A DNA stretch of 37,079 bases from Nitrospirota bacterium (GCA_012026685.1 VEOY01000096.1:1-37079), one strand, 5' to 3'. Shown: positions 2,567-35,531, counted from the stretch's first letter. Numbers and translations: made by a program. The notes: generated by a model not told the origin, from the letters alone.

Positions 2567-2643
<77 letters not shown>

Positions 2644-2910: not shown

Positions 2911-2987
2911 GCGCCTGTAGCTCAGATGGATAGAGCATCAGCCTCCGGAGCTGAGGGTCGGAGGTTCGAATCCTCTCAGGCGCGCCA
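2911..2987 (+). tRNA. tRNA-Arg (anticodon CCG)
   Basis: The acceptor GCGCCTG pairs with CAGGCGC, the same acceptor stem as the TCT tRNA-Arg upstream. The anticodon stem TCAGC/GCTGA encloses CTCCGGA, giving CCG, which reads CGG. The T arm contains GGTTCGAATCC and CCA is encoded. Confidence 0.95.
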
Positions 2988-3045
2988 GCCCACGTCACGG
3001 ATGAAGCGGTGGTGATCAGAAAGTGTACTGCAGTGCCGTGTTGGG

Positions 3046-3074
3046 TTGACTCCTTTTTTTGTTTTTATTAATAT
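3046..3074 (+). promoter_or_regulatory. Probable internal sigma-70 promoter for tRNA-Lys
   Basis: TTGACT (3046-3051) and TAATAT (3069-3074) are 17 bases apart in an AT-rich stretch between tRNA-Arg(CCG) and tRNA-Lys. The larger 136-base gap between these two tRNAs fits a separate promoter. Confidence 0.6.
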
Positions 3075-3123
3075 ATTTCTTCACGGATTGCTGAAGACCA
3101 ATCAATGATCACTGTTACTCCAT

Positions 3124-3199
<76 letters not shown>

Positions 3200-17540: not shown

Positions 17541-17588
17541 ATTGCAGATTGCAATCCCTGCGGGATCCGATTCCTTGCAATTTGCAAT
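17541..17588. promoter_or_regulatory. Tandem dyad activator sites upstream of the osmC sigma-54 promoter
   Basis: ATTGCAGATTGCAAT (17541-17555) and CTTGCAATTTGCAAT (17574-17588) share the pattern NTTGCANNTTGCAAT. Their centres are 33 bases apart, about three helical turns, and lie about 165-200 bases upstream of the -12 element, the usual place for bacterial enhancer-binding-protein sites. The activator gene's stop codon touches the second site. Confidence 0.65.
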
Positions 17589-19961: not shown

Positions 19962-20325
19962 AATCTTACTATAACCCATACGTGTCCAAAACAGATGAAA
20001 AGAAATGACCGAAAACCTCATGAGTCCGGTTGATCGGCAGTACCTTGAAAGGGCAAACCTCCCCGGATATCGGCCTGACCGGCATACATTTCAGTTTAGC
20101 CGGCTGCAGGATGACCATTTTTGAGGGAGTCGCAACCGCATTCATTCGGCATCCGTTCGTTTCAATTATTCCTGGACACCAGTGACTATAACCAGGAATC
20201 GTGGCCATTGCTCAAACGCTCGCGGCAAATCTTCATCAGACATGAAAAAATACTTTTTTGCAGTTCGCCGCTGTTTATGGAATAATGGGTTCTATCCTGT
20301 CGGAGATATAAGGAGGAAGCATCGC
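19962..20325. other. Divergent intergenic region, no convincing gene
   Basis: It separates the minus-strand GTPase from the plus-strand OsmC gene. It holds an inverted repeat ATTCCTGG (20168-20175)/CCAGGAAT (20192-20199) and short frames on both strands (39 codons from ATG 20005 plus; about 79 codons from 20208 minus) without good ribosome sites. I see no clear promoter. Confidence 0.4.
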
Positions 20326-20966: not shown

Positions 20967-20982
20967 TGGCACTGGAATTGCT
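20967..20982 (+). promoter_or_regulatory. Sigma-54 promoter at the head of the C1/CoM gene train
   Basis: TGGCACTGGAATTGCT matches the -24/-12 consensus at all fixed positions. The predicted transcription start is about 20993, only a few bases before GTG 20997. Confidence 0.85.
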
Positions 20983-20996
20983 CATTATTATTCACC

Positions 20997-21350
20997 GTGA
21001 GCGACATCCTGTTATGCACCCATAACCCGCTGCTGATCAAGGGGCTCTATGGCATCCTGCGCGATGAGGGATGCACGGTCGATATTTCCGACCATCCTGC
21101 CCATGCGGTCCAGCAGATCATGAAGAACTCCTATGGGGCTGTTATCATCGATTCTCAAACCTGCGGCATGACCGCTGAGGATGCGGTAAAGGTCATCAAG
21201 ACCGTTGCACCCGACATCAGGGTGATCCTGCTGGGATACCCTGAATATGAAACAGATGCAATGAGCATTAAAGTCCCTGTGGACCTTGAAACCGTAAGGT
21301 CTCTCATTCACGGCATGCGTCAGCTCAGCACCATTTCACATAATTCCTAA
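20997..21350 (+). CDS. Pseudo-receiver (CheY-like) protein
   Basis: 117 residues with a receiver fold: DILLCTHNPLLIKGLYGILRDEGCTVDI, then VIIDSQ (a possible phospho-Asp) and RVILLG. The acidic pair normally at the end of strand 1 is replaced by THN, and the KP dipeptide near the end reads VPVD, so phosphorylation chemistry is probably lost or altered. The start is set at GTG 20997 because the fold begins there and the sigma-54 promoter overlaps anything earlier. ATG 20949 gives a 133-residue version with an odd N-terminus and would need another promoter. It is the first gene of the operon, 19 bases before the first methyltransferase, so it may tune the pathway. Confidence 0.65.
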   Translation: MSDILLCTHNPLLIKGLYGILRDEGCTVDISDHPAHAVQQIMKNSYGAVIIDSQTCGMTAEDAVKVIKTVAPDIRVILLGYPEYETDAMSIKVPVDLETVRSLIHGMRQLSTISHNS

Positions 21351-21369
21351 TCAAGGAGGGAGCATTTCT

Positions 21370-22416
21370 ATGGCTATGACACCAAGAGAGACTGTCTTAA
21401 AGGCTTTTGCTATGGAGAAGACCGAGAGGGTGCCGGTCACCCTGTTCGGCGGCGGCATGTGGTCCATCAAGGACTACGGGACAACGTTCGAAGAACTCGC
21501 CAACAATGTGGACAAGAATGTCGAGATGTGCATTGCCGAGGCGGAAAAGATCAGATCGGACATCGTGTACGTCGGTTCAGGGTTCAATAATTTTCACGCC
21601 ATCGCGCTTGGCAGGAAAATGGGAGTTGGCGTCAAGTTTCGCGAGATCGGCGCACCGGACATGACCGCCCACGTGGTCAGTTCTGAAGAAGACATCGCCA
21701 AGCTTGACATGGAAGACATTTTCAAGGACCCCGTAGTGCTCAATGTCATGGAGGCCACGCGGAAGGTGAAGCAGAAGATCGGCGACAAATATCTCGTCAC
21801 CATGACCTGCTGGGGGCCGTTCACCCTTGCTGCCCGCTTTGTCGGCGAGGAGGCCTTTATGAAAGCTACGTTCAAGAAACCCGCTTTTGTCGAAAAGATG
21901 GTCGATTTTTGCGCAGACCTGCTCATAAAACTTTATGAACCGCTGGTCAAGGACGGTGTCGAGGCCCTCAGTATCGCAGACCCGACGGCATCGGGAGACC
22001 TGATCAATCCGAAGCAGATGTCCAGGTTTGCCGTTCCCCCCCTGAAGAAGATGAGCGACTGGGCGAAATCCAAGGGCGCATACACCATACTGCATATCTG
22101 CGGAAATACGAGCGACAGGCTCGAACTGTTCCCTGAGACCGGCTGTTCGACGATCTTTTTCGATCAGAAGGTCGATATCGCGAAGGCGCGGGAAGCCCTG
22201 TCAGGGAAAATGTCTTTCGGCGGCAATGTGGCTCCGGTGCATGTTCTTCTCAACAAGACCGCGGCTGAGGTCGAAGCTGCATGCAGAGAGGTCATTGAGA
22301 TCGCGGGCAAGGACAATAAAGGATTTATCCTGGTGCCCGGCTGCGACATACCGCCGACCATCAGCTTCGAGAACCTGAAGATGTTCCATGATGTCGCGCT
22401 GAACTGGAAATTTTAG
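21370..22416 (+). CDS. UroD-fold methylcobamide:thiol methyltransferase (MtaA/MtbA-like), copy 1
   Basis: The 348-residue protein is of the uroporphyrinogen-decarboxylase superfamily, the MtaA/MtbA/CmuA branch. It opens MTPRETVLKAFAMEKTERVP and has the Zn-thiolate motif HxCx(n)C: His242 and Cys244 in LHICGN, and Cys325 in VPGCDIP. In this family the zinc activates HS-CoM (or another thiol) for methylation by a methyl-corrinoid protein. The ribosome site is AAGGAGGG. Copy 2 is at 24150, and the two are diverged paralogues, so they may serve different thiols or directions. CoM as the acceptor is inferred from the CoM biosynthesis genes in the same train. Confidence 0.85.
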   Translation: MAMTPRETVLKAFAMEKTERVPVTLFGGGMWSIKDYGTTFEELANNVDKNVEMCIAEAEKIRSDIVYVGSGFNNFHAIALGRKMGVGVKFREIGAPDMTAHVVSSEEDIAKLDMEDIFKDPVVLNVMEATRKVKQKIGDKYLVTMTCWGPFTLAARFVGEEAFMKATFKKPAFVEKMVDFCADLLIKLYEPLVKDGVEALSIADPTASGDLINPKQMSRFAVPPLKKMSDWAKSKGAYTILHICGNTSDRLELFPETGCSTIFFDQKVDIAKAREALSGKMSFGGNVAPVHVLLNKTAAEVEAACREVIEIAGKDNKGFILVPGCDIPPTISFENLKMFHDVALNWKF

Positions 22417-22488
22417 TCTTGATTTGATACCCCTGAGGGAGGTGAGGAAAAAACAAGGGGATCGGGAATAAGTAAAGGGAGGTACAAG

Positions 22489-23001
22489 ATGGGGTTCGTT
22501 GATTATGTGAAAAAAATGCTCGGCCTTGAGCCGGGTGATCAAACCAAGGAGGCAAGTACCATGGCAGAAAAGATGACGACAGAGCAAGTGAATGATTATA
22601 TGAAGCAGAAGTGCGGTTTTGTTCCGAGGATGTTCCAGATCATCAATACGGTGACGCCGGACCCGGGAAGGACCTTCGCTGACTTCTACGAAAGCATTTT
22701 TGCAGATGGGGCACTTTCGCGGAAGCATAAGGAGCTCATGTTTATGGCAGGCGGCGTTGCTTACTGCTCACCCCGTTGCATTATCCATGTCATTCCTGCC
22801 GCAAACGCGGGCGCGACATGGAACGAGGTCTTCGAGGCCGCAGCTGTCGGCATGATCCTGGCCGGTTTTGTTCCGGGCGGCCCCGGCATCCCGTATGCGT
22901 TCGAGTATTGCCTGAAGTGCCTTGACATCTTTGACAAGTACAAAAAAGGCGAGAAATGGGAGTATCTGCCTGCTCCGAAGTTTGATCACGGAGTGTTCTA
23001 A
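22489..23001 (+). CDS. AhpD/carboxymuconolactone-decarboxylase-like protein
   Basis: This 170-residue helical protein has CSPRCIIHV near residues 92-100, a CxxxCxxH variant of the CxxCxxxH redox-active motif of the AhpD/CMD superfamily. The second half is helical with Gly-rich FVPGGPG and the C-terminus has CLKCLDIFDKY. It may be a thiol oxidoreductase or a thiol-handling accessory of methyl transfer. An alternative start is ATG 22561 (MAEKMTTEQVN) with CAAGGAGG upstream; ATG 22489 also has AAGGGAGG. It sits 72 bases after the first MtaA-like gene. Confidence 0.75.
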   Translation: MGFVDYVKKMLGLEPGDQTKEASTMAEKMTTEQVNDYMKQKCGFVPRMFQIINTVTPDPGRTFADFYESIFADGALSRKHKELMFMAGGVAYCSPRCIIHVIPAANAGATWNEVFEAAAVGMILAGFVPGGPGIPYAFEYCLKCLDIFDKYKKGEKWEYLPAPKFDHGVF

Positions 23002-23016
23002 GAAAATCAAGGTATA

Positions 23017-23065
23017 GGTAAAGGCGGAGGATGGACAGAGTTCAGATACATTCTCTGCCTTTACC
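23017..23065 (+). repeat. Hairpin in the 164-base gap before mtrH
   Basis: GGTAAAGGCGGAG (23017-23029) pairs with CTCTGCCTTTACC (23053-23065), 13 bp with one G-U pair. It lies just after the AhpD-like stop codon and could protect the mRNA 3' end or be a processing site. Confidence 0.55.
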
Positions 23066-23077
23066 CTGTGCCTGAAC

Positions 23078-23114
23078 AAAAAAAAGGCAGCGTCCTGAGA
23101 CAGGAACCGCTGCC
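23078..23114 (-). terminator. Terminator-like hairpin oriented to the minus strand inside the operon
   Basis: GGCAGCG-TCCTG (23086-23097) pairs with CAGGA and CGCTGCC (23101-23114, 2-base bulge). It is preceded by eight A on the plus strand, that is, followed by eight T on the minus strand. On the minus strand this is a textbook intrinsic terminator, yet no minus-strand gene is nearby. Confidence 0.55.
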
Positions 23115-23165
23115 CGTAAGTATAGAGATCATAGTTTAGCATAATTTTGAGATAAAGGAGACGGA

Positions 23166-24125
23166 ATGTTCAAATTCGAAAGAGAACAGAAGGTGTTTAA
23201 TTTCAGCGGCATCCCTGTCGGCGGCCAGCCGGGTGAGAACCCGCCGCTGATGATCGCGTCGCTTTTTCATAACAAGGACAGCGTTACCAAGACCGACCGC
23301 AAGGGTAATTTTGACCGCGAGCGGACCAAGGAGATGCTCAAACAGATGGAGCAGATCTCGGAGGCTACCGGGGTTCCCGGCATGGTCGCCATGGTCGCCA
23401 ATACGCCTGATGAGGCAAAGCTCTATATTGACTTCTATCTCGAGAACACCTCCATGCCGTTCGGCATCGATATGTGGGTGGCTGAGCAGCGGGCAAAGGC
23501 GACGGAGTATGTGTCCAAGACAGGGGTCCAGGACAAGTTCCTGTACAACAGCATCACCCCCTGGGACAAGGACATCAAGGGACAGGTGCAGAGGCTTAAG
23601 GACCTCGGCATCAAACATGTGGTGATCCAGGCGTTCGATGACCAGGACCAGTCCCCTGCGGGCAGGGTGAGATCCCTGGAATCCATAATGGCGCAGGGAG
23701 CGGATTCATTCGATACCATCATCGTCGATACGTCGGTCATGAACATGCCTTCGACCTCCTTCTCCCTTGTTGCCAACCGGCTCATCAAGGAAAAGCACGG
23801 CCTCCCGTGCGGCGGCGCATACTCGAACGGCACGCATATGTGGGGAGAGATCAAGCAGAAGTGGGGGCTTGACGGGTTCAAGGCAATGGACGCAGTCGTC
23901 CAGGGCATGGGCTCCGCGCTCTGGTCCGACTTCAACTTCTGTGGTCCGGCTATCACTGCGCCGCGCGTATTTCCAGCGGTAGCCAGCGCGCATATCCTGC
24001 TCTCGACGCTTGTCTACGATGAGACAGGGATCATTTACGACAATCCCAACCTGCCGATCCGCAAGCAGTTTGCGGATTTCATCGCGAAGCTCCAGGAGGG
24101 CGGTTCGAGGAAAAAAGGAAAATAA
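23166..24125 (+). CDS. MtrH-like tetrahydropterin:corrinoid methyltransferase
   Basis: The 319-residue protein matches the methyl-tetrahydromethanopterin:CoM methyltransferase subunit H family, a TIM barrel related to bacterial MeTr proteins. It opens MFKFEREQKVFNFSGIPVGGQPGENPPLMIASLF, with DKFLYNSITPWDKDIKGQVQRLKDLGIKHVVIQAFD and VDTSVMNMPSTSF further on. MtrH moves a methyl group between the pterin N5 and a corrinoid cobalt. The other seven Mtr subunits are absent; the corrinoid partner is the free-standing protein at 25178. The pterin could be tetrahydrofolate or tetrahydromethanopterin. AAAGGAGACGG precedes the ATG. Confidence 0.88.
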   Translation: MFKFEREQKVFNFSGIPVGGQPGENPPLMIASLFHNKDSVTKTDRKGNFDRERTKEMLKQMEQISEATGVPGMVAMVANTPDEAKLYIDFYLENTSMPFGIDMWVAEQRAKATEYVSKTGVQDKFLYNSITPWDKDIKGQVQRLKDLGIKHVVIQAFDDQDQSPAGRVRSLESIMAQGADSFDTIIVDTSVMNMPSTSFSLVANRLIKEKHGLPCGGAYSNGTHMWGEIKQKWGLDGFKAMDAVVQGMGSALWSDFNFCGPAITAPRVFPAVASAHILLSTLVYDETGIIYDNPNLPIRKQFADFIAKLQEGGSRKKGK

Positions 24126-24149
24126 TTTCGAAAGGAGATTTGCCATATT

Positions 24150-25178
24150 ATGAATTCACGCGAAAGAGTACTGAAATTATTCAAGAAGGAGGCGATAGAC
24201 AGGGTCCCCTGCTTCAGCGGCATGGGCAACATCACCGAGACCGGCATCAATGAGCTCGGGTACAAGTTTGCCGGAATACATCTTGATGCAAAGCAGATGG
24301 CGGCCACTGCCGCGACCACCTACAAGCTGTTCGGGTTCGAATGCGGGGTCGTCCCGGTCGACCTCTGCGTTGAGGCGGAAGCGATGGGGTGCGTGATCAA
24401 TGTCTATCCCCATGCGGAGGGCATCCTCTATCCCACGATCAAGGAGAAGCTCATCCATAATGAAGCGGAGATGGATACCATTAAAATACCGGACGGTTTT
24501 TCCGAAAAAGGGAGACTGCCCCTGATGAGGGAGGCGATAAAGCTCCTCAAGGCGGATATCGGCAATGATGTTGCAGTCGGTTCCTACGTGCTCGGACCGT
24601 TCACTCTTGCCGGCCAGATCATGGAGTTGAACGATCTTCTCAAGCTCTCCTTCAAGAAGGCTGACAAGGTCGCCAAACTTCTCGATCTCTGCGCGGACGC
24701 GATCATCCTTACCGCAAAGGAATTCGAAAAGGCGGGTGTTGATTATATTACGGTCAGGGAGATGGGTGCGACCAGCGACGTGCTGAGCCCGCGGGTATTC
24801 AAGAACCTCATCATGCCGCCGCTGCAGAAGGTGATCAAAGCGATCTCCTGTCATACCGTTCTCCATATCTGCGGCAAGACGAACGACATCGTCACGTTCA
24901 TGATGGAGGCCGGTCCCACGGCGATAAGCGTTGAGCAGAAGAACGATGTTGCCGAATCGCGGAAAAAGCTCGGCAGCGACGCTCTCATCTTCGGGAACGT
25001 GGATGCCTATAACGTCCTTGTTTCAGGGTCTGAGGACCTTGTCAGGTCTACGGTGAGAAAGTGCATCGACGACGGCGTCAGCGCGGTTTGGCCCGGATGC
25101 GACATCTGGCCGACCATACCCCCGGAGAACATGAAAGCTATGATGGATGAAATAAACAAATATGGAGGTAAAAAGTAA
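24150..25178 (+). CDS. UroD-fold methylcobamide:CoM methyltransferase (MtaA/MtbA-like), copy 2
   Basis: A 342-residue protein strongly resembling archaeal MtaA/MtbA. The start is MNSRERVLKLFKKEAIDRVP with a family-typical FSGMGNITETG. Zn ligands are His239 and Cys241 in LHICGK, and Cys317 in WPGCDIWPT. VEQKNDVAESRKKLGSDALIFGN is also in the family pattern. It transfers methyl from the corrinoid protein to HS-CoM, or back. Its stop overlaps the corrinoid-protein ATG (TAATG), so the two are made together. Copy 2 looks closer to the methanogen CoM enzymes than copy 1; this is a judgement by eye. Confidence 0.88.
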   Translation: MNSRERVLKLFKKEAIDRVPCFSGMGNITETGINELGYKFAGIHLDAKQMAATAATTYKLFGFECGVVPVDLCVEAEAMGCVINVYPHAEGILYPTIKEKLIHNEAEMDTIKIPDGFSEKGRLPLMREAIKLLKADIGNDVAVGSYVLGPFTLAGQIMELNDLLKLSFKKADKVAKLLDLCADAIILTAKEFEKAGVDYITVREMGATSDVLSPRVFKNLIMPPLQKVIKAISCHTVLHICGKTNDIVTFMMEAGPTAISVEQKNDVAESRKKLGSDALIFGNVDAYNVLVSGSEDLVRSTVRKCIDDGVSAVWPGCDIWPTIPPENMKAMMDEINKYGGKK

Positions 25179-25864
25179 TGGCAGACGAAGCAAGAAAAAA
25201 AGAGATCCTCGAGAAGCTGCGGAACGGTGTTATCCAGTATGACGAAGATGCGTGCAGAGAAGGTGCGAACGAGGCAGTAGCCGAAGGCCTCGACGCGAAC
25301 GAGGCCATCTTCGACGGGCTCGTCTCAGGCATGGAAGAGGTGGGAAGGCTGTTCGAAGCACAGGAATATTTTGTCCCCGAGATCCTCATGTGCGCTGACG
25401 CGCTCTACGCAGGTCTTGACATCCTGAAGCCCCACTGCAAGCAGATGGACCTCGGCGTCAAGGGGTCGGTCGTCATCGGCACGGTCGAAGGCGACGTGCA
25501 CGATATCGGCAAGAACCTGGTCAAGATGATGTTCGATGTTGCGGGCTTCCATGTCTACGACCTCGGCAGGGACGTTCCCCTTGACAAGTTCGTTGACGAG
25601 CAGCTGAAGACCGATTCGGAACTGGTCTGTCTGTCCGCCATGATGACCACTTCGATGGTCGGCATGCCGAAGGTCATTGAGAAGATCAAGGCGAAGAACC
25701 CCAACTGCATGATCATGATCGGCGGCGCCCCGACATCCAAAGACCTGGCTGACAAATGGGGTGCGGACGGCTATGCGGAAGACGCAAGCAACGCTCTCAA
25801 GGAAGCGATCAAGATGGTCGCGTTCCTGAAAAAACTGAGGGACGAAAAGGCCGCCAAGAAGTAA
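25178..25864 (+). CDS. Corrinoid protein (MtaC/MtbC-like)
   Basis: The 228-residue product has a helical cap domain (about 1-90, LRNGVIQYDEDACREGANEAVAEG) and a B12-binding Rossmann domain. The cobalt-ligating His108 sits in GDVHDIGKN (DxHxxG), and IGGAPTSKDLADKWGADGYAEDA is the usual end of the fold. It carries methyl-cob(III)amide and shuttles methyl groups between the MtrH-like and MtaA-like enzymes. Cobalt is oxidised occasionally and needs the RACo protein encoded downstream. The start overlaps the previous stop by one base. Confidence 0.93.
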   Translation: MADEARKKEILEKLRNGVIQYDEDACREGANEAVAEGLDANEAIFDGLVSGMEEVGRLFEAQEYFVPEILMCADALYAGLDILKPHCKQMDLGVKGSVVIGTVEGDVHDIGKNLVKMMFDVAGFHVYDLGRDVPLDKFVDEQLKTDSELVCLSAMMTTSMVGMPKVIEKIKAKNPNCMIMIGGAPTSKDLADKWGADGYAEDASNALKEAIKMVAFLKKLRDEKAAKK

Positions 25865-25867
25865 GCT

Positions 25868-26518
25868 GTGGATGCTGACCCGCTCAAGCAGTACCTGAAA
25901 AGGGAAGGCGCGACGCTTGTCGGCATCGGCGATGTAACCGAGGCTCTCACGAGCGAGATCATGCACCTGAATCGCGGCGTAGCGATCGCGGTGAACAGGA
26001 GCCTTAACCGGAAGACCGTTGAGATACTCTCGATGCTTCAGGGGCTTGCCGTCGGATGGCTCAGCGCCCGGGGATACCGAACTCTTTCGATACCCCCGGA
26101 TTCTGACCGGCGGAAGGACAAGCTGATCACCAAGCTCTACAAGCTGTTCTGCCATAAGACGGCAGCCACCTGCTCCGGGCTCGGATGGGTCGGCAAGAAC
26201 GGGCTGGTGATCAACCGGCAGTACGGTTCAAAGCTCTCCTGGGCAACGGTCCTTACCAATGCCCCGCTGGTTGCCGATCCGCCGATCAGGGAATCCGAGT
26301 GCGGGGACTGCGACCTCTGCGTCAGGCATTGCCCTTCCGGTGCGGTCAAGGGACATCTCTGGTCGGTTCGTGAACCCCGCAAAAAGATCGTTGCGTATGA
26401 GAAGTGCACTGCGCTCAAGGACAAGCGGCAGAGCCTTGAGAACAAACCGAACTGCGGGTTTTGCGTAACGGTCTGCCCCTATTCGAGAAGGGCGAGCAGG
26501 GAGGCAGGAAGGAAATAG
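25868..26518 (+). CDS. Double-[4Fe-4S] protein related to QueG-type Fe-S domains
   Basis: The 216-residue protein (GTG start, 3 bases after the corrinoid gene) has SGLGWVGKNGLVINRQYGSKLSWATVLTNAPL, the signature that precedes the Fe-S domain in QueG and related proteins. CGDCDLCVRHCPSGAV and CGFCVTVCPY follow for two [4Fe-4S] clusters. It lacks the full catalytic length of QueG (about 350-380 residues). In corrinoid clusters it likely passes electrons to Co(II) for reactivation, alongside the RACo protein. This role is inferred from position. Confidence 0.8.
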   Translation: MDADPLKQYLKREGATLVGIGDVTEALTSEIMHLNRGVAIAVNRSLNRKTVEILSMLQGLAVGWLSARGYRTLSIPPDSDRRKDKLITKLYKLFCHKTAATCSGLGWVGKNGLVINRQYGSKLSWATVLTNAPLVADPPIRESECGDCDLCVRHCPSGAVKGHLWSVREPRKKIVAYEKCTALKDKRQSLENKPNCGFCVTVCPYSRRASREAGRK

Positions 26519-26574
26519 GATTTTTTTGATGTTGGACGAACTACTACTATTGAATTTCCAAGGAGGAAATATAC

Positions 26575-28567
26575 ATGAGCCGTAAATTCAAGGTGATTTT
26601 CCAGCCGGCAGGCCGGCGTGGAGAAATAGAAGAGGGCACAACGATCCTCAAGGCAGCGCAGCTCCTGGGCGTTGATCTTGAGGCGCTCTGCGGCGACAAG
26701 AAGGTCTGCGGCAAGTGCAAGGTGAGGATCGAGGAGGGATATTTCGGAAAAGGACAACCTCGAGTCCAGCATGTCCCATATCATACCGGCGGAGGCAGGC
26801 GCGGACGAGCTGAAGCATATCAAGCCGGAAGACGGGCCGGGTATCCGGCTTGCCTGCTCCTGTGAGGTCCACGGCGATCTCAAGGTCTTTGTGCCGGAGC
26901 GGTCGCGCGCCGGAAAACAGGTGGTGAGAAAGGCCGCAAAAGAGCTGTCGATCGCCCTTGATCCCGCGGTAAAGAAATATGCGCTGTCGCTTACCCCCCC
27001 GACACTGCATGACATGACGACGGGCGATTACGAGCGCATCGTGACGGAGATGGAAAAGGATTACGGTCTGAAAGACCTGAAGTTCGATTACCGGGTGCTG
27101 CTCGGGCTGCAGGACGCCCTGCGCGAGGGAGAATGGACCATTACCCTCACGGTCTGGCAGGACAGGGAGATCGTGAAAGTGGAGCCGGGCCACGTGGATG
27201 TATGCTACGGTCTTGCCGTTGATATCGGCACCACCACCTGCGTCGGCTATCTGTGCGACCTGTCGACGGGCAAGGTCATAAACACCGAGTCCATGATGAA
27301 CCCTCAGGTGCCGTATGGCGAGGACGTCATGTCCCGTATCACCTATGCGATGTCCAACCCCGAGGGTCTCAAGACCATGCAGGATGCGATCATCACCGGA
27401 CTGAACGAGATCATCGATAAGGTCGTGGCCGAGGTGAAGAAGGACGGGCCGAACCCGGGATTCGCGATCGACGACCTCACGATCGTTTTCAATACCGCGA
27501 TGCACCATATCTTCCTCGGACTGAACCCGGTCTATATCGGCAGATCGCCGTTCATTCCCGCAGTGCAGCGCTCGCTGGACATCAAGGCGCGCGATCTGGG
27601 GCTCAGGATCAATCCGGGATCGTACATCCATGTACTGCCGATCGAGGCGGGCTTTGTCGGCGCCGACAACGTGGGCGTGCTGATCGCCCAGGAACAGTAC
27701 TTTCAGGACGATATGGTTCTCATCATCGATATCGGCACGAACGGGGAGCTTCTCCTCGGCAACAAGGACAGGGTATGCTCGACGTCCTGTGCCACAGGCC
27801 CGGCGTTCGAGGGAGCCCAGATCAAGTTCGGCATGAGGGCCGCGCCCGGCGCGATCGAAAAGGTCAAGATAGACCCCGCGACCAAGGAGCCGCTGTACAA
27901 GGTGATCGGCAAGGCTGACTGGCATACGCACATCGAAGGCAAGATCAACGCCAAGGGCATCTGCGGGTCCGCCATCATCGATGTCGTGGCCGAGATGTTC
28001 AAGGCCGGCGTCATAGACAAGACCGGCAAGTTTGTCATGGACAGCGGTTCTAACCGCGTGCGGAAGGATGCAGCGGGCAAGCCCGAGTATGTCCTTGCGT
28101 GGGCCGAAGAGACCTCGATCAACCAGGACATTACCGTTACCCAGGGAGATGTCCGGGCACTCCAGCTTGCAAAAGGGGCGCTCTACACCGGCACGAAGCT
28201 CATGATGCAGAAGATGGGCGTGACCAAGCTTGACCGCGTTGAGCTTGCAGGTGCGTTCGGCAGCCATATCGACCGCGAGGCGTCGCTCACCCTCGGCATG
28301 TTCCCGGATGTTCCCATCGGCAAGGTCGTTGTTGTCGGCAATGCTGCCGGCGACGGGGCGCGGATGACCCTTCTCAATAAGGCAAAGCGGATCGAGGCCG
28401 ACGAACGCGCGCGGTGGGTCAATTTCGTCGAGATAGCTACCGAGCCGGCGTTCGAAAAGGAATTCATGATGGCGATGCACATACCGCACATGAAGGACAA
28501 GTACACGAACCTGAAGGCGTTTCTTGAAGAGCAGAAGGAACCGATTGCTTCGTCCATAAAGGCATAA
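26575..28567 (+). CDS. RACo-type corrinoid activator, split by a one-base frameshift near 26746
   Basis: The first part (26575 to about 26745) is a 2Fe-2S ferredoxin domain: ALCGDKKVCGKCKVRIEEGYF, the CX5CX2C set. The sequence then needs to skip one base (extra G in TTCGGAA) to continue EKDNLESSMSHIIPAEA, RLACSCEVHG (the remaining Cys ligand), and the ASKHA ATPase domain, with AVDIGTTTCVGYL and IIDIGTNGELLLGN. The combined product is about 660 residues, the family's usual size. RACo-like enzymes use ATP and an Fe-S cluster to reduce inactive Co(II) corrinoid to Co(I). A sequencing error, a real mutation or recoding could explain the shift. AAGGAGG precedes ATG 26575. The second part alone could start at ATG 26771. 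Confidence 0.88.
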
Positions 28568-28572
28568 GCAGG

Positions 28573-28683
28573 AAGAGAGGCGGTTTCTTCTGCCTCTCTT
28601 CTACGGGCCACAGGACTGCAAGGCGAAATTTCCCCTCCATTGGAAATTCCCCTCCCCCTTGCATATCGTGGCCCGTAGAAGAG
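28573..28683. repeat. Nested inverted repeat (MITE/REP-like) between RACo and the next gene
   Basis: An outer pair CTCTTCTACGGGCCAC (28596-28611) / GTGGCCCGTAGAAGAG (28668-28683) is perfect over 16 bases. Inside are TGCAAGG/CCTTGCA and a near-direct repeat AAATTTCCCCTCC / AAATTCCCCTCC. A separate 9-bp hairpin AAGAGAGGC (28573-28581)/GCCTCTCTT (28592-28600) shares the left edge. No T-run follows, so it is not a classical terminator. It looks like a small palindromic element, here inside the operon. Confidence 0.6.
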
Positions 28684-28694
28684 AAAATATAAAC

Positions 28695-29027
28695 ATGACA
28701 CGGGCTACTGTTCAATCAGGCATATGCGGTTTTTCCGTTGTGGTATCGGTCGAGAGGGACAAGGACAGGAATCTCCGCATCACGCTTGATACCGAATGCG
28801 AGATGGTGAAGAAGATGGCCGAGGACATTTCCTTCCTTGAGTTCAGGGCGCCGTTCGCCACCATACTGCACAACCCCGTCTACAGGTCTGCATCAAAGAA
28901 CCTGAGACATGCGGCCTGCCCGGTGCCATCAGGGATACTGAAGGCCATCGAGGTTGAACTGGGCGTCTGCCTGCCGAGACCGGTCAGCATCACTCTCGAA
29001 AAAGAGGAAGAAAAAAAGCCGTCGTGA
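28695..29027 (+). CDS. Small DUF6951-like protein of methyltransferase loci
   Basis: The 110-residue product begins MTRATVQSGICGFSVVVSVE and contains DTECEMVKKMAEDI and AACPVPSGILKAIEVELGVCLPRPVSITLE. The pattern SGICGF ... CPVPxGIxKAIEVxxGxxLP fits DUF6951-type proteins that I associate with corrinoid methyltransferase loci; I hold the name with moderate confidence. Conserved cysteines might bind a metal. There is no Shine-Dalgarno, and the ATG lies just after the palindromic element. Its function is unknown. Confidence 0.65.
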   Translation: MTRATVQSGICGFSVVVSVERDKDRNLRITLDTECEMVKKMAEDISFLEFRAPFATILHNPVYRSASKNLRHAACPVPSGILKAIEVELGVCLPRPVSITLEKEEEKKPS

Positions 29028-29031
29028 GACC

Positions 29032-29841
29032 ATGGATCTGATCTCTTCGAAGCCATGGGTCCTCTTCTGGGCTTTTGTCATGTGCTGCCACCTGTATCTG
29101 GATATTTCTCTTTACCGGCGCTGGAAAGGGTGGAAACGCGGCCTTGACGCCGCCTTTAGCCTGCGCGAGCTGAACGGCCCGGCAGTGAAGATCTGGCTCG
29201 GCGAGGTGTTTCTGCAAAGGCAGCTCCTTTCACTTTCCGTGGCGCGCTGGATCATTCATCAGTGCCTGTTCTGGGGGTTCATCTCCCTGACCTTCCTCTC
29301 CGTGTCAAAGTTCATTTTGCTCCTGCTGAGTCTGATATCCCTTGACGCAGGTCTCCATGCCTTCTTCTCGAAGGGCGCCGGCTATCCATACGTAAAGCTC
29401 TGGGGGGATTTTTTCGGCCTTATCCTGTTTGCGGGATGTGCCGGGGTCCTTGCGAGGCGTTTCATTGCCCGTCCTCTTCAGATCGTCCATGACCAGACAG
29501 ATACCTTCCTTTCCGTATATCTGCTGTTCATGACCGTGTCAGGGTTCATGCTCGAAGGCCTGCGTATGTCGGCATTCCCGGCCGCTCATGACAGCTATGC
29601 CTTTATCGGGGGCCTTTTCATGCCTTCCTCCGGCGGAATCGTCTCTGCGCCCGGCACATGGTATCTCTGGACATGGATCGTGCATGCTTTCAGCGGGGCG
29701 GCGATACTTATCTATCTGCCCCAGAGCAAGCTGATGCACAGCCTTCTTGCTCCGATCATCATAGCCCTGAACGCGGCGGAAGAGCACGGAAGAAAGGACT
29801 TATATTGGCCGAAGACAAAGCAGTACCGACCGACAAAATAG
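29032..29841 (+). CDS. HdrE/NarI-like membrane cytochrome b, copy 1
   Basis: A 269-residue integral membrane protein, start ATG 29032. Hydrophobic helices include residues 8-26, 78-105, 125-150 and 205-230. Histidines at helix ends (IIHQCLFWGF, RPLQIVHDQTD, WIVHAFSG) are candidates for heme b binding. Its position before the HdrD-like gene gives the HdrE-HdrD pairing: HdrE takes or donates electrons at the quinone/methanophenazine pool. The reading frame overlaps the HdrD-like gene by 37 bases, implying coupling. By homology alone it could also be a DsrM-type protein; context favours an Hdr-type role. Confidence 0.75.
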   Translation: MDLISSKPWVLFWAFVMCCHLYLDISLYRRWKGWKRGLDAAFSLRELNGPAVKIWLGEVFLQRQLLSLSVARWIIHQCLFWGFISLTFLSVSKFILLLLSLISLDAGLHAFFSKGAGYPYVKLWGDFFGLILFAGCAGVLARRFIARPLQIVHDQTDTFLSVYLLFMTVSGFMLEGLRMSAFPAAHDSYAFIGGLFMPSSGGIVSAPGTWYLWTWIVHAFSGAAILIYLPQSKLMHSLLAPIIIALNAAEEHGRKDLYWPKTKQYRPTK

Positions 29842-31064
29842 CAGCCGGGCTCACCCGGCGGCAGCTCATAGAGATCGATGCCTGCGCCCGCTGCGGAGAG
29901 TGCCTGGCCTGGTGCCCTGTCTATGCGCAGGACCCGCGGGAGAGCATCTGTTCCCGGGGCAAGCTCAGGTCCCTCAAAGGTCTCGTGAGATCCGGCCTCG
30001 ATGAAGCAGAGCAAAAAGAGTTTCTTGAAGGCTTGTATGAGTGTTCTGCCTGCGGGCAGTGCCATGTTGTCTGCCCGGTGCGCATCAATACCCACGAACT
30101 CTGGGAGCAGGCGAGGGAGTCCCTGGTCAAGGCCGGGATCCCGCAGCCTGAGCAGCAGATCAAACATCTTGCCGCGATCAGGGAGTTCAATAACGCGTAT
30201 GCAAAACCTCAGCAGGAGCGCGGCGCATGGGCGGAAAAGGCCTGGAAGGCCGGCCTGCTCAGGGAGCCGGTGAGGCTCTGGAAGGAACACAGGGCTTCTG
30301 TTCTTTATTTCGCCGGATGTACGGCAAGCTTCGACCCTGTCATGCAGGCGGTGGCTGTCCAGTCTGCGCGGCTTCTCCAGGAAGCGGGAATAGATTTTGC
30401 GATACTCGGACCGGATGAGCCCTGCTGTGCCAGCAAGCTGAGGCGCATGGGTGCCCCGGGGTTCGCTGATGAGGCGCGTAAGCGTGTTGATCTGTTCCGT
30501 GAACAGGGGATCGAAACGATCGTCGTCTCCTGTGCAGGTTGCTTCAAGGGACTTCATGCCGACTACCGGGGCATACTGTCGCCCTCCACAGAGGTCTTCC
30601 CTCTGACTGCGTATCTCGACAGGCTTATCGGCGAAGGGAGGCTGAGGCCCCGGGAGAAGGTTCCCCTGCGGGTGACCTATCATGACCCCTGCCACCTGGG
30701 ACGGCACAACCAGATCTACAGCGAACCGCGGAGTCTGCTCAATGCGATTCCCGGGATTGAGCTCGTGGAGATGCGGAGGCACGGACCTTTTTCTGCATGC
30801 TGCGGCATGGGGGGAGGCCTGAAGCTTGCCAAGCCGGAGATACAAAAAAAGATGTCAGCCGCGAGGGTCAAAGAGGCTGAGGACACAGGAGCAGAGGTGA
30901 TAATCACGCCCTGCCAGACGTGCCAAATAGGGCTGACCGTAGGCGTTGAGGCGATTTCCTCCCGCCTGAGGGTGTATCATATGAATGAGGTGCTCATTCG
31001 TTCGGTCTGCCCCGAGGTATGCAGAGAGCATATCGAGAAGGCCTTCGCTGCCGCGGAAGAATGA
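29805..31064 (+). CDS. HdrD-like Fe-S protein, copy 1
   Basis: The 419-residue protein starts at TTG 29805, chosen for the AAAGGA at 29792-29797; in-frame codons upstream are inside the membrane gene. The N-terminal part has two [4Fe-4S] motifs: CARCGECLAWCP and CSACGQCHVVCP. The C-terminal part has two CCG domains: GCTASFD ... CCAS ... CAGC, then DPCHLGRH ... ACCGMGGG ... CQTC. These bind the noncubane clusters that split disulfides in HdrB/HdrD. The first CCG site reads CCA rather than CCG. Substrate disulfide is not known; a CoM-containing one is inferred from the CoM genes downstream. Confidence 0.82.
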   Translation: MAEDKAVPTDKIAAGLTRRQLIEIDACARCGECLAWCPVYAQDPRESICSRGKLRSLKGLVRSGLDEAEQKEFLEGLYECSACGQCHVVCPVRINTHELWEQARESLVKAGIPQPEQQIKHLAAIREFNNAYAKPQQERGAWAEKAWKAGLLREPVRLWKEHRASVLYFAGCTASFDPVMQAVAVQSARLLQEAGIDFAILGPDEPCCASKLRRMGAPGFADEARKRVDLFREQGIETIVVSCAGCFKGLHADYRGILSPSTEVFPLTAYLDRLIGEGRLRPREKVPLRVTYHDPCHLGRHNQIYSEPRSLLNAIPGIELVEMRRHGPFSACCGMGGGLKLAKPEIQKKMSAARVKEAEDTGAEVIITPCQTCQIGLTVGVEAISSRLRVYHMNEVLIRSVCPEVCREHIEKAFAAAEE

Positions 31065-31100
31065 CCGGTCATCCGTAAAGGGACCGGTATAGGAAAATCT

Positions 31101-31778
31101 ATGGGACTTGTTCTTTCTTTGGGCTTTTACGCCGCGTTCCTTTTCTTCGTTGCGGGGTATCTTGCCAGGATGCTGGGCTGGGCACGATACGCGTCTCCGC
31201 AGGCGGTGCCGGAAGGGAAGCTCTCCCTGTACGTGTGCCTGAGCGCATTGGCGGACATCCTGCTGCTCAGGAGACTGCTCAGGGTGAACGACGTTCTCTG
31301 GGTGGGAGAGTGGGTCTTTCATGCGTCGCTGCTCGTCCTGTTCCTCAGTCATCTGAAGTACATCCTCGACCCGGTACCGGCGGTCATTGCTTCGATGGAG
31401 ATCCCCGCACGCGTTGCGGCCTGGCTCCTGCCGGCTTCCCTGCTGTATATCGGCATCATGAAGGTCATCATCGAAAAGAAAGCGTATGTGTCGAGCTACA
31501 ATTTCATGCTCCTCGGACTCATCATGGCCTCGGGCGCGAGCGGTCTTGTCATGAAATATTCCCTGCGGGCAGATCTCGCGGACGTCAAGCATTTCACCAT
31601 GGGGCTCATGATCTTTCATCCCGGCACTCCCCCCGGGAGTCCGGTCTTCCTGGTCCATTTTGTTGTCTTTCTCGTTCTCCTTGCGTGTCTGCCGACGCAT
31701 GTCTTCGCTGCGCCGCTTACCATGCTCGAAGCCCGTCAGCGGGAAGAAGAACTTCCGCATCTGATGCATGAAAAATAG
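31101..31778 (+). CDS. HdrE/NarI-like membrane cytochrome b, copy 2
   Basis: A 225-residue protein with about five membrane helices (around 5-22, 40-58, 65-88, 100-125 and 180-205). His residues in WVFHASLLVLFLSHLKY and FLVHFVVF are likely heme b ligands, arranged like NarI and HdrE. This copy is closer in size to classical HdrE/NarI than copy 1. It overlaps the next HdrD-like gene by 11 bases. The pair follows copy 1 at a 36-base gap. Confidence 0.82.
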   Translation: MGLVLSLGFYAAFLFFVAGYLARMLGWARYASPQAVPEGKLSLYVCLSALADILLLRRLLRVNDVLWVGEWVFHASLLVLFLSHLKYILDPVPAVIASMEIPARVAAWLLPASLLYIGIMKVIIEKKAYVSSYNFMLLGLIMASGASGLVMKYSLRADLADVKHFTMGLMIFHPGTPPGSPVFLVHFVVFLVLLACLPTHVFAAPLTMLEARQREEELPHLMHEK

Positions 31779-32979
31779 CGACTCCTTCATAAAGGGACTC
31801 ACCCCATCCCAGCGGATAGAGATAGACGCGTGCACCCAGTGCGGCGAATGCCTGGGCTGCTGTCCTGTCCAGCAGGTAACGCAGAACCCTGCTATCTCGC
31901 CGCCGGAGAAGATCAGGATGTTCAGGGAGTTCATCAAGGCGACCGACAGCCTGAAGGCGAAACTCCTCGGCGCAGACGAGATCGACAGGAAACTCCTCGA
32001 GGACTTTACCCGGGCAATCTTTGAATGCACCACCTGCGGTGCATGCGGCCGGAGTTGCGCTGTGGGGATCCATACCCAGAGGCTCTGGCCGATGCTCCGG
32101 AAAGAGATGGTGCGTCGGGGGCTCGGCCCCATAGGCCCGCAGAAAGAGATGCCTGCAGTGATACGAAAGACCGGCAATCCCTATAATAAACCCGCAGATG
32201 AGCGCTACAGCCCCTGGTTTCCTGAAGGCATAGCGGTTGCTGAAAAAGCGTCAATAGCGTACTATGCCGGCTGCACCGGCGCCTACGAGGCCCAGCCGAT
32301 GGTGAAGGGAGATGTGCTGGTCCTGCATGCCATTGGTGATCCCTTCACCATGCTGCCCCCTGAGGAAGAGGTCTGCTGCGGCTTCCCCCTGTTCATCACC
32401 GGACAGCATGATATGCTGGAAGATCTCGTCAAACGACTGGTTGAGTCCTATCGGGCGAGAGACGTCAGGACCCTCGTCTGCTCCTGCCCCTGCTGCGTGA
32501 ATATCATGGCCAGGGACTGGCCGGTCTATTACGGAAAGGAACTCCCCTTCAGGATACGGCATATTACCCAGGTCGTCTCCGATGCTTTTGCAGCAGGCAG
32601 ACTGAAGATCGAACAGGAACTGAAGGAGAGGCTCATCTATCATGATCCCTGCTATCTCAGCAGGGGCGTGGGCATCACGGAGGAGCCGAGGAGCGTGCTG
32701 AGGAGCATACCCGGCATCGAACTGCTCGAGTTCGACAGCAACAGGCTTGAGTCGCGGTGTTGCGGCGCGGGAGGAGCAGCGCGGAAGGTATTCCATGAAA
32801 ATGCCACTGCCATGGGCCGCATGACCATAGACGAGGCTGTCCGGAAAAAGGCGGACAAGCTGGTCCTGAGCTGCCCTGCCTGCTACGGAAAAGTGAATGA
32901 GGCGATGCAGGATCATGATAGAAAGGTCCCGATTGTTGATATCATGGAATTGGTAGCGAGCCTGCTCGGGAAAGGGTAG
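31768..32979 (+). CDS. HdrD-like Fe-S protein, copy 2
   Basis: The 403-residue product has two [4Fe-4S] motifs: CTQCGECLGCCP and CTTCGACGRSC (one Cys spacing slightly altered). Two full CCG domains follow: GCTGAYE ... EEEVCCGFPL ... CSCPCC and DPCYLSRG ... RCCGAGG ... CPACYGK. These are the noncubane sites used for disulfide reduction. It is diverged from copy 1, so the two pairs probably handle different disulfides or redox directions. ATG 31768 lies inside the HdrE stop region. Confidence 0.85.
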   Translation: MKNSDSFIKGLTPSQRIEIDACTQCGECLGCCPVQQVTQNPAISPPEKIRMFREFIKATDSLKAKLLGADEIDRKLLEDFTRAIFECTTCGACGRSCAVGIHTQRLWPMLRKEMVRRGLGPIGPQKEMPAVIRKTGNPYNKPADERYSPWFPEGIAVAEKASIAYYAGCTGAYEAQPMVKGDVLVLHAIGDPFTMLPPEEEVCCGFPLFITGQHDMLEDLVKRLVESYRARDVRTLVCSCPCCVNIMARDWPVYYGKELPFRIRHITQVVSDAFAAGRLKIEQELKERLIYHDPCYLSRGVGITEEPRSVLRSIPGIELLEFDSNRLESRCCGAGGAARKVFHENATAMGRMTIDEAVRKKADKLVLSCPACYGKVNEAMQDHDRKVPIVDIMELVASLLGKG

Positions 32980-33023
32980 CCTGAAATTCTGTCTGCCCAT
33001 TGAATTTGGTATCCTTGTCGTTT

Positions 33024-33058
33024 GTCTGTTATTCCGGCTTGTCCGGAATCTGTCAGAC
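33024..33058. repeat. REP-like hairpin in the gap before the cysteate synthase gene
   Basis: ATTCCGG (33031-33037) pairs with CCGGAAT (33043-33049), flanked by GTCTG (33024-33028) and CAGAC (33054-33058). The core resembles the hairpin at 238-258, and a transposase of the RAYT type begins at the window end, so these may be REP elements. The whole 32980-33174 gap has no gene. Confidence 0.5.
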
Positions 33059-33174
33059 AGGTTTAAGGAAGATTCCGGGACACGCTTCACAATCGGTAAC
33101 GGCAGCCTTTTGTGAGCAACGTAATTTATGGGCGGACACGAATTATTCGATGCATGAATAGAGAGGGATGAGCC

Positions 33175-34431
33175 ATGAGCCATTTTTCGATCATCTGCAG
33201 GAAATGCGGCAAAGAACTGCCGAACACGTATTGCGCCTTCTGCGAGCACTGCGCGAACTCCCTTCTCATAACGAGTTACCGGGACCCGTTCCGGGATGAC
33301 TGCGGCAAGGGCATATGGAAATTCAACTGGCTTCCGGTGCATACGCCGGCCTTTGATCAGCCCGGCACGGTCGTTTACCGGTCCCAGTGGCTTGCACGTC
33401 ATCTTGATATGACCGATCTGTATATCGCGTTCAACGGCTACTGGCCGGAGAGGGGAGCATTTCTTGAGGCCTGTACGTTCAAGGAATTCGAGGCTGCGAT
33501 CGTGCTCCAGAACGCTGTAGAGAACGGTGTCGAAGGTCTGATCGTGGCATCGGCAGGGAATACAGCCCGCGCCTTTGCCCACCTCTCGATCGTTGCCGGG
33601 TTCCCGGTCATTATCGTGGTGCCGCGGATGTGCCTGATGGAGATGTGGTACCTGGAGAGCTCTTCCATGGTCCCCACGCTTGCGGTGGGAGACGGGGATT
33701 ACTCCGATTCCATCGACGTTGCCCGGAGGATCGCTGCCGTGTCCGGTTTTCCCTTTGAGGGCGGCGTAAAGAACATTGCCAAGCGTGACGGCCTCGGTTC
33801 GACGATCCTTGAAGCGGTGTCCGTCATGGGAAGACTGCCTGATCACTACGTTCAGGCCGTAGGCAGCGGTACGGGAGGCATCGGAGTGTGGGAGATGTCG
33901 GAAAGGTTTTTGCGCGACGGACGGTTCGGAACCGCGCTGCCGAAACTTCACCTCGCGCAGAACCTGCCGTTTGCGCCCATGGTCAAGGCGTGGGAAAAAA
34001 GGAGCAGGGAGCTTTTCGAGGAGGACCTGCGGCCAGAACTCATCGGTCAGATATCGACCCGTGTGCTCTCGACCAGATATCCTGCTTATTCCGTGCAGGG
34101 AGGCGTGTTTGATGCCATGCAGGCAGCCGGAGGAAGCATGTACGGCGTGACGAACAGAGAGGTATTTGAATCGATGGAGCTTTTCAGCAATCTGGAGGGC
34201 GTTGATATTGTGCCCGCAGCCGGCGTTGCGGTCGCTGCACTGAAACAGGCCCTTGAAAAAAAGACCATTCAGAAAGGTGATAGTGTTCTGCTCAATATCA
34301 CCGGCGGCGGCGAGGTGATGCTGGGCAGGGAAAAGAAGACATACAATGTGGAGCCGGCCTTTGTGTCAAAGAAGATCACGGACAAGGAGATCGAGGACCT
34401 GATATGTACAGCCCTGAAGAAGAGCTCATAA
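33175..34431 (+). CDS. Cysteate synthase (PLP, threonine-synthase-like)
   Basis: A 418-residue fold-type-II PLP enzyme. Lys103 in the TFKEFEA segment after GYWPERGA is the Schiff-base lysine. VASAGNTARAFAH binds phosphate, VGSGTGGIGVWE follows, then PKLHLAQNLPFAPM, MYGVTNREVFES and LLNITGGG, all matching archaeal cysteate synthase rather than ordinary threonine synthase. The reaction is O-phosphoserine + sulfite to L-cysteate, the first committed step of the Methanosarcina CoM pathway. A zinc-ribbon-like N-terminus reads CRKCGKELPNTYCAFCEHC. It overlaps the ComDE-like gene by 28 bases. Cysteate for sulfonolipid synthesis is an alternative, but the downstream decarboxylase argues for CoM. Confidence 0.85.
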   Translation: MSHFSIICRKCGKELPNTYCAFCEHCANSLLITSYRDPFRDDCGKGIWKFNWLPVHTPAFDQPGTVVYRSQWLARHLDMTDLYIAFNGYWPERGAFLEACTFKEFEAAIVLQNAVENGVEGLIVASAGNTARAFAHLSIVAGFPVIIVVPRMCLMEMWYLESSSMVPTLAVGDGDYSDSIDVARRIAAVSGFPFEGGVKNIAKRDGLGSTILEAVSVMGRLPDHYVQAVGSGTGGIGVWEMSERFLRDGRFGTALPKLHLAQNLPFAPMVKAWEKRSRELFEEDLRPELIGQISTRVLSTRYPAYSVQGGVFDAMQAAGGSMYGVTNREVFESMELFSNLEGVDIVPAAGVAVAALKQALEKKTIQKGDSVLLNITGGGEVMLGREKKTYNVEPAFVSKKITDKEIEDLICTALKKSS

Positions 34432-35531
34432 CCATACTGAAGAAGTCGTCGGTGGACTTTGCGGCTTCTCTGCCGTGCGAGAAGATCAAGACGCTGCTTG
34501 AAATGGTCGAAGAGCAGTTCTTTCATGTCCCGCTCACGCGGGAGGAAGAGGGTGTCGGCATCTGTGCGGGCGCTGCACTGGCAGGCAGGCGTCCTGCGAT
34601 GTTCGTCCAGAGCTCCGGTATCGGGAACATGCTGAACGCCCTTCTTTCACTGACGCAGTTCTATGAACTTCCGCTCGCGATCTTCGTAAGCCAGAGGGGG
34701 ATCTATAAGGAGAAGATCGCCGCCCAGTTCCCGATGGGACAACGCTTGCCCGCTATTCTGAGCGGGGCCGGGGTTCCCTGCTCAAGCATCAGCTCGCGGG
34801 ACGATCTTATTGTTGTTGCGCAGAACCTGCCCCGGGTGTATGAAGGGAACCAGGTGCATGCGTTTCTGCTGAACCCGGCGATCTGGGAAGGATCAACAGC
34901 GCTGCGCGAGCGGGCGCTTGACCAGAGGCCGGTTGCCTGTGTGATCCCTGACCAGAGAAGGGAGGCGTCTCCTCCGGCCCTTACCCGGTATGAGATCATC
35001 GAAGCGGTCGCGCCGTGTCTTGCCGGCAAGCTTGTGGTGAGCAATCTGGGCTGGCCGTCAAAGGAACTCTATGCGATCAGGCATCAAAGTTCTAATTTCT
35101 ACATGCTCGGCAGCATGGGCATGGTATCTCCGATAGGGCTGGGCATCAGCCTTTCCTGTAAGAAGGACGTGGTCGTTATCGACGGCGACGGAAGCCTGCT
35201 CATGAACCCCGGCATTCTTGCCACAGCCGCACACTTTGCGCCTGGGAACCTTACGATTCTCGCCATAGACAACAGCTCGTACGGCTCGACAGGGAGCCAG
35301 GAGACCCTGACCGGCTCCTGCGTTGACCTGGAGCTTGTTGCGCGGGGGTTCGGCATAGGCAATACCGCAAAGGTATCCACGCAGGAAGAACTTGCCGCGG
35401 CCATGGGGTCAGTCAGTAAGGGGCTGAAGTTCATCCATGCGCTTGCCGTTCCCGGCAACAGGGACGTCCCGAACATCCCTGTTGACCATATCACGGTCAG
35501 AAACCAGGTCATCGATTTTCTGAAGGAATAG
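34404..35531 (+). CDS. Fused sulfopyruvate decarboxylase ComDE
   Basis: The 375-residue protein fuses the ComD-like Pyr domain (about 1-170, with the catalytic Glu in LTREEEGVGICAGAALAG) and the ComE-like TPP/Mg domain (about 190-375). The latter has IDGDGSLLMNPG near 260 and DNSSYGSTGSQ near 290, the GDG-x(n)-N motif. It decarboxylates sulfopyruvate to sulfoacetaldehyde in CoM synthesis. Phosphonopyruvate decarboxylases are relatives and cannot be excluded from sequence alone. The overlap with cysteate synthase makes the CoM reading strongest. The transaminase (cysteate to sulfopyruvate) and the final thiol-forming step are not in the window. Confidence 0.85.
   Translation: MYSPEEELITILKKSSVDFAASLPCEKIKTLLEMVEEQFFHVPLTREEEGVGICAGAALAGRRPAMFVQSSGIGNMLNALLSLTQFYELPLAIFVSQRGIYKEKIAAQFPMGQRLPAILSGAGVPCSSISSRDDLIVVAQNLPRVYEGNQVHAFLLNPAIWEGSTALRERALDQRPVACVIPDQRREASPPALTRYEIIEAVAPCLAGKLVVSNLGWPSKELYAIRHQSSNFYMLGSMGMVSPIGLGISLSCKKDVVVIDGDGSLLMNPGILATAAHFAPGNLTILAIDNSSYGSTGSQETLTGSCVDLELVARGFGIGNTAKVSTQEELAAAMGSVSKGLKFIHALAVPGNRDVPNIPVDHITVRNQVIDFLKE

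Follow-up and report, generated by a model that had tools for sequence, protein, structure and literature searches.

Coenzyme M (CoM) carries methyl groups in methanogens and their relatives, and in bacteria it is known from alkene metabolism. In methanogens, MMP16 (COG1900) forms CoM, and sulfide and sulfoacetaldehyde also react slowly without it; the type 2 synthesis of Methanosarcina acetivorans comprises cysteate synthase, ComDE and MMP16, and Xanthobacter uses a distinct route that starts from phosphoenolpyruvate (PMC12068725). For Hydrothermarchaeota, which have mtrH without mcr, an "alternate fate" of methyl-SCoM has been suggested, and only suggested (PMC6775978). The MtoABCD system of Methermicoccus and the Mtv system of Moorella combine in one operon a UroD-related first methyltransferase (MT1; MtoB is related to MtaA/CmuA), their own corrinoid protein, a RACo-type activase and, in Mto, the MtrH-like methyltransferase MtoA (PMC8630106). 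Here we analyze a 37,079-nucleotide stretch of a Nitrospirota bacterium (GCA_012026685.1, VEOY01000096.1:1-37079; "the window"), part of a 3.04 Mb draft genome that is 97% complete, in which a single operon joins CoM-type synthesis genes to a corrinoid methyl-transfer module.

A preliminary description, made from the window alone, had listed fourteen plus-strand genes (21370-35531) in a bacterial host. Their place, order and strand are all correct and their families are backed by Pfam and NCBIfam; the list needs some corrections, the first being that a receiver-like gene is the first gene of the operon in most relatives. Judged by cysteate synthase, the nearest relatives of the host are Nitrospirota metagenome-assembled genomes, and the bacterial host is supported. 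The best reading of the locus, to which we assign a probability of roughly 60%, is a bacterial CoM methyl-transfer pathway that is independent of methyl-CoM reductase (Mcr) and has a non-orthologous last step. The operon would at least yield sulfoacetaldehyde, the precursor, but most likely CoM itself, which would carry methyl groups on its thiol and be tied to tetrahydrofolate one-carbon metabolism in sulfur-respiring Wood-Ljungdahl bacteria that lack Mcr.

The locus resembles MtaABC/MtbA of methanogens in its UroD-type zinc methyltransferase (a sister clade), its MtbC-like corrinoid protein and its CoM-type synthesis genes, but differs in the bacterial host, the lack of Mcr, the MtrH gene beside the corrinoid protein gene, the bacterial-type RACo, and an operon with no known MT1 for methanol or methylamines (MtaB/MttB/MtmB/MtbB type). 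It shares cysteate synthase and ComDE with M. acetivorans, whereas MMP16/COG1900 is missing and a cytoplasmic protein of the sulfonate-binding fold tracks the pathway instead. With Xanthobacter it would have CoM synthesis in bacteria in common, but by the cysteate route, a difference that the preliminary description had rightly pointed out. As in Mto and Mtv, a UroD-related methyltransferase, a corrinoid protein and a RACo-type activase are encoded in one operon, with an MtrH-like methyltransferase as in Mto. Compared with these systems, the operon contains an extra MtaA-type UroD protein, CoM synthesis genes and an HdrDE-like pair, and UroD1 retains the HxC...C zinc motif. In the Hydrothermarchaeota JdFR-17 and JdFR-18 alike, cysteate synthase, ComDE and the cytoplasmic sulfonate-binding-fold protein are present and COG1900 is absent; they differ in being archaeal and based on tetrahydromethanopterin (H4MPT), with the genes spread over several loci. 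In Hydrothermarchaeum profundi (JdFR-18) every member of the set has a homologue, and these are distributed over three loci: L147 holds UroD1 (46%), CMD (62%), DUF6951 (40%) and CobW; L144 holds UroD2 (56%), MtbC (66%), RACo (60%) and MtrH (37%); and L042 holds Hdr, cysteate synthase, ComDE and the candidate CoM synthase. COG1900 had no match in Hydrothermarchaeum, with positive controls. We regard the system as a variant of the known systems for CoM methyl transfer, in a domain of life where they were not expected, plus one candidate new enzyme.

With cysteate synthase as the query we retrieved 52 loci, for the most part from Nitrospirota, plus six from archaea. The recurrent order is receiver, UroD1, CMD, MtrH, UroD2, MtbC, QueG-like, RACo, DUF6951, HdrE, HdrD, cysteate synthase, ComDE. 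We extracted 20 long Nitrospirota loci, each up to 20 kb in length. The complete order from UroD1 to ComDE is present in 16 of them; one of the other four has its Hdr genes rearranged and three show the distal part only, and the genome of one of these (L135) carries the methyl module and its own Hdr pair on another contig. Because the order is kept in about 40 Nitrospirota genomes, as the preliminary description had proposed to check, a chance arrangement is excluded. Defining carriers as genomes with a cysteate synthase above the cut-off, we counted 42 carriers and 254 non-carriers among 296 Nitrospirota genomes. DUF6951, a marker of the methyl-transfer module, is present in 44 of the 296 and occurs together with cysteate synthase in 41 (phi 0.95), a pairing that persists even where the two are split across contigs. 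Carriers are patchily distributed across numerous families, one of which (f23) does not belong to the class of the host. Exceptions to the pairing include a locus at a contig edge (G058), a truncated cysteate synthase (G080) and a genome that is 74% complete (G076).

The two terminal genes are of the CoM synthesis type, as claimed in the preliminary description, and group with neither phosphonate enzymes nor threonine synthases. Cysteate synthase exceeds the TIGR03844 cut-off by 124 bits; in ComDE the alpha half is above its cut-off and the beta half falls 4 bits short. In the tree, cysteate synthases stand apart from threonine synthases and adjoin the archaeal enzymes, with the Nitrospirota sequences forming one group (92/93), which would fit an old inter-domain transfer in either direction. 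Curated scores and the tree thus rule out threonine synthase, and phosphonopyruvate decarboxylase is ruled out for ComDE by a score far under its cut-off.

The CoM metabolism had been called self-contained, and this did not hold up: the known CoM-forming enzyme is absent from the operon and from the whole host genome, and COG1900/MMP16 was found in 0 of 42 carriers with positive controls. A protein of the sulfonate-binding (SsuA/TauA) fold adjoins ComDE in two Mcr-less archaea and several Nitrospirota. It is cytoplasmic and has no signal peptide, and it occurs in 40/42 carriers but only 3/254 non-carriers, often on a separate contig. Among five archaea with a clear result, the two without COG1900 have this protein, whereas the three with COG1900 show weak generic matches or none. 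Its residues H7, C74, H79, H120, W143, D145, C255 and H298 (L028 numbering) are invariant and are absent from two exported relatives. Solved proteins on this fold are TauA and SsuA, but also the cytoplasmic enzyme Thi5 and the entries 7an6, 7an7 and 7an9, which we take to be MqnA, likewise a cytoplasmic enzyme; as the AlphaFold model is poor (pLDDT 67), we used the fold class alone. A role as transporter subunit is unlikely given the missing signal peptide, and identity with the thiamin enzyme Thi5 is disfavored since the protein tracks cysteate synthase. We infer that it is the best candidate for the CoM synthase. An uncharacterized conserved protein of about 200 amino acids recurs beside the candidate gene (host L166:8734-9351, minus strand). 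The model of DUF6951 is confident (pLDDT 90) and its closest solved folds are all IscU/SufU/SufE-like, at weak similarity (best E 0.1, TM ~0.48); the invariant C11, C35, H72 and C75 are compatible with a predicted sulfur or metal carrier.

The absence of a known CoM synthase from every carrier also suits the view that the product is another sulfonate, with sulfoacetaldehyde serving taurine, isethionate or a similar compound and the methyl module working on tetrahydrofolate alone. Ssu/Tau-type transporter genes lie in or near some loci, and bacterial MtaA homologues usually deliver their methyl group to tetrahydrofolate (PMC5770442). We nevertheless consider this unlikely, because it leaves the near-perfect linkage to an MtaA-sister methyltransferase unexplained and because we saw nothing in the operon that would form taurine or isethionate.

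The methyl-transfer module stood up as described, with a UroD protein that is sister to archaeal CoM methyltransferases. Aligned with 4ay7, both UroD1 and UroD2 keep the HxC...C zinc motif of MtaA. UroD2 scores above the subfamily cut-off PRK06252 and below the MtaA and MtbA equivalog cut-offs; in the tree it clusters with a protein from Hydrothermarchaeum and with another copy from the host (C213), and this cluster is sister to methanogen MtaA/MtbA (94/91), not part of that group. The suggested kinship with CoM methyltransferases is supported for UroD2; UroD1 falls in a separate clade that is present in Hydrothermarchaeum too. The tree rules out HemE of heme synthesis as the identity of either protein, and a HemE-like gene lies separately on contig C5. 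MtrH is above the PRK00979 cut-off and below the mtrH and MtgA equivalog cut-offs. In several relatives the operon itself contains FolD, and in others MetF is found next to the operon or next to the candidate synthase, so that the pterin partner is probably tetrahydrofolate. The proposed check for mcrA gave no match in the host genome, which rules out Mcr and methanogenesis there. The host has a second RACo, corrinoid and UroD-family set with no MtrH seen nearby (L140, G000:C12, 6691-10547, minus strand), which possibly feeds methyl groups into the same CoM pool. The second MtaA-like UroD protein (47% to UroD2; L139, G000:C213, 8200-10059) is followed by a CobW-type GTPase, and the same stretch also encodes a CooS-like carbon monoxide dehydrogenase.

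The Mto-like make-up of this module could also point to ordinary corrinoid O- or S-demethylation of the Mto/Mtv/Mtg kind. UroD1 would then be the MT1, MtrH would pass the methyl group to tetrahydrofolate, UroD2 would be a second MT1, and the CoM and Hdr genes would meet general redox or oxidative-stress needs; comDE overexpression is reported to protect a methanogen from oxidative stress (PMC12713407). We judge this as unlikely as another sulfonate product, since UroD2 groups with, and not outside, the archaeal CoM methyltransferases and all genes share a single operon with a single sigma-54 site.

Only HdrE2/HdrD2 is the conserved Hdr-like pair, HdrE1/HdrD1 being confined to a few relatives. 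In HdrD1 as in HdrD2, the CCG domain occurs twice in complete form alongside two 4Fe-4S motifs, and each protein is accompanied by a b-type membrane subunit as in HdrDE, and in HdrE2 four histidines are conserved at at least 95%. The label HdrDE is therefore a sound description of the architecture. None of the curated Hdr models is matched, however, and HdrE2 is most like DsrM, so that reduction of CoM-S-S-CoB is at most a putative activity; HdrD2 gives a weak DsrK match. An unannotated protein of 83-84 amino acids with conserved cysteines and no Pfam/NCBIfam match lies between HdrD and its neighbors in the archaeon (L042:9013-9267) and in a Nitrospirota locus (L103:10077-10328). That CoM is a redox thiol, with HdrE2/HdrD2 acting in sulfur metabolism as DsrMK does, on a disulfide, trisulfide or persulfide of CoM, and methylation being a side task or thiol parking, is in line with these matches and with the DsrA of most carriers but very improbable, because methyl-transfer genes are the majority of the operon and DsrMK proper presumably already serves sulfate respiration.

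For the CoM methyl-transfer pathway, we infer all reactions, which way they run, which thiol is used and how the last step proceeds from the observed gene families, gene order, co-occurrence, promoter and phylogeny. Cysteate synthase, a housekeeping aminotransferase and ComDE would lead to sulfoacetaldehyde, which would be converted to CoM by a step outside the COG1900 family, for which the sulfonate-binding-fold protein is the leading candidate, perhaps aided by sulfide. UroD2 would move methyl groups between the MtbC-like corrinoid protein and CoM, and MtrH between the same corrinoid protein and tetrahydrofolate, with RACo, perhaps together with the QueG-like protein, keeping the cobalt active. 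UroD1 would bring in the methyl group from a donor, probably of the thioether type, and HdrE2/HdrD2 would connect the quinone pool with a thiol/disulfide couple that is presumably based on CoM.

Several points weigh against this pathway, beginning with its being known here from genes and not from chemistry. The known CoM synthase family is missing from all carriers, and since bacterial MtaA usually serves tetrahydrofolate, UroD homology alone is no proof of CoM. In one genome, G290, which is 88% complete, the methyl module is full and no cysteate synthase was found; another (G203) has cysteate synthase and DUF6951 and no clear sulfonate-binding-fold protein, and a third (G223) has the latter alone. 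The co-occurrence tests (Fisher p-values) ignore shared ancestry, and the supporting counts of DsrA (40/42), which means that sulfite and sulfide are probably at hand, and of the acetyl-CoA synthase domain (38/42) cover carriers only.

We found no description of CoM in Nitrospirota, nor of this pathway, in the literature searched, which covered few subscription papers. If the reading is true, CoM would have a third role, in a bacterial operon that joins its synthesis to corrinoid methyl transfer without Mcr; the "alternate fate" of methyl-CoM in Mcr-less archaea would gain a concrete setting, the missing CoM synthase a testable candidate, and CoM genes in metagenomes should not be read as methanogenesis without caution. 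More tentatively, and with odds well short of even, CoM may be a general methyl carrier in many non-methanogenic sulfur-respiring bacteria and Mcr-less archaea. Its last synthesis step would then fall to a cytoplasmic enzyme that evolved from transport proteins of the sulfonate-binding type, possibly with DUF6951 as sulfur carrier, in a non-orthologous replacement of MMP16/ComF; Thi5 and MqnA are precedents for enzymes with this fold.

The sigma-54 control proposed earlier is borne out by the site TGGCACTGGAATTGCT, by its recurrence and by an adjoining activator gene. None of 300 shuffles scored as well as its 11/11 positions, and in 18 of 23 relatives the same region contains a site that matches at 10 or 11 positions. 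The neighboring activator is likely the operon regulator, and activators of the same type recur near the operon in several relatives. The CobW GTPase adjoins UroD1 in relatives and in Hydrothermarchaeum. An Rfam scan found no riboswitch, tRNAs being the sole matches, and sigma-70 promoters appeared at chance level only. Two OsmC-like proteins (window 16795-17331, minus strand; 20182-20835, plus strand) flank the activator and CobW genes upstream of the operon. Five loci (L098, L099, L100, L102, L006) carry a methyl-accepting chemotaxis protein between RACo and HdrE2, which perhaps senses the substrate.

Features of the operon and associated genes; positions refer to the window unless a contig is given.
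Feature	Position	Strand	Basis
Sigma-54 (-24/-12) promoter TGGCACTGGAATTGCT	20967..20982	+	11/11 consensus positions
Receiver-like gene, operon head, before the fourteen	20997..21350	+	start inferred; Response_reg 26.5 bits, under cut-off; position conserved
UroD1, MtaA/CmuA-superfamily corrinoid methyltransferase, HIC...PGC zinc motif	21370..22416	+	profile matches, alignment, tree
AhpD/CMD-like protein	22489..23001	+	Pfam/NCBIfam match; C97 and H100 conserved
MtrH-family methyl-corrinoid:pterin methyltransferase	23166..24125	+	PRK00979 310 bits (cut-off 287); nearest solved MtrH, MtgA
UroD2, MtaA-like candidate methylcobamide:CoM methyltransferase	24150..25178	+	PRK06252 263 bits (cut-off 244); nearest solved MtaA 4ay7; tree 94/91
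MtbC-like corrinoid protein	25178..25864	+	Pfam and NCBIfam
QueG-like double-4Fe-4S protein	25868..26518	+	profile matches
RACo corrinoid activase, in two frames	26575..28567	+	profile match; one-base insertion near 26746
DUF6951	28695..29027	+	profile match; predicted fold weakly IscU/SufU/SufE-like; invariant C, C, H, C
HdrE1, NarI-like membrane cytochrome b	29032..29841	+	profile match; lineage-specific
HdrD1, two 4Fe-4S motifs and two complete CCG domains	29799..31064, start approximate	+	profile match, motif count
HdrE2, DsrM-like membrane cytochrome b, four conserved His	31101..31778	+	profile match, alignment
HdrD2, CCG iron-sulfur subunit of core pair	31768..32979	+	profile match; conserved pair
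Cysteate synthase (O-phosphoserine + sulfite to cysteate)	33175..34431	+	TIGR03844 448.6 bits (cut-off 324.9); tree
Fused ComDE sulfopyruvate decarboxylase	34404..35531	+	TIGR03845 182.7 (147.95); TIGR03846 217.9 (221.5)
Sigma-54 enhancer-binding activator (GAF, AAA+, Fis helix-turn-helix)	17588..19105	-	Pfam Sigma54_activat 241 bits
CobW/G3E GTPase, recurrent neighbor	19083..20021	-	Pfam cobW 133 bits
Cytoplasmic sulfonate-binding-fold protein, host copy	G000:C160:18448-19371 (L166:9431-10426)	-	no signal peptide; tracks cysteate synthase

The insertion that splits RACo (window 26740-26750) has no counterpart in the close relatives L002, L097 and L098 and is probably an assembly error. HdrE1 probably starts at 29032 and HdrD1 near 29800, a long ATG frame from 29658 in the HdrD1 region overlapping HdrE1. 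An RHS-repeat fragment lies immediately 3' of ComDE (window 35545-36540), and a cluster of five tRNA genes (2364-3196) stands beside a gene for a LarC-type nickel insertion protein (1156-2373).

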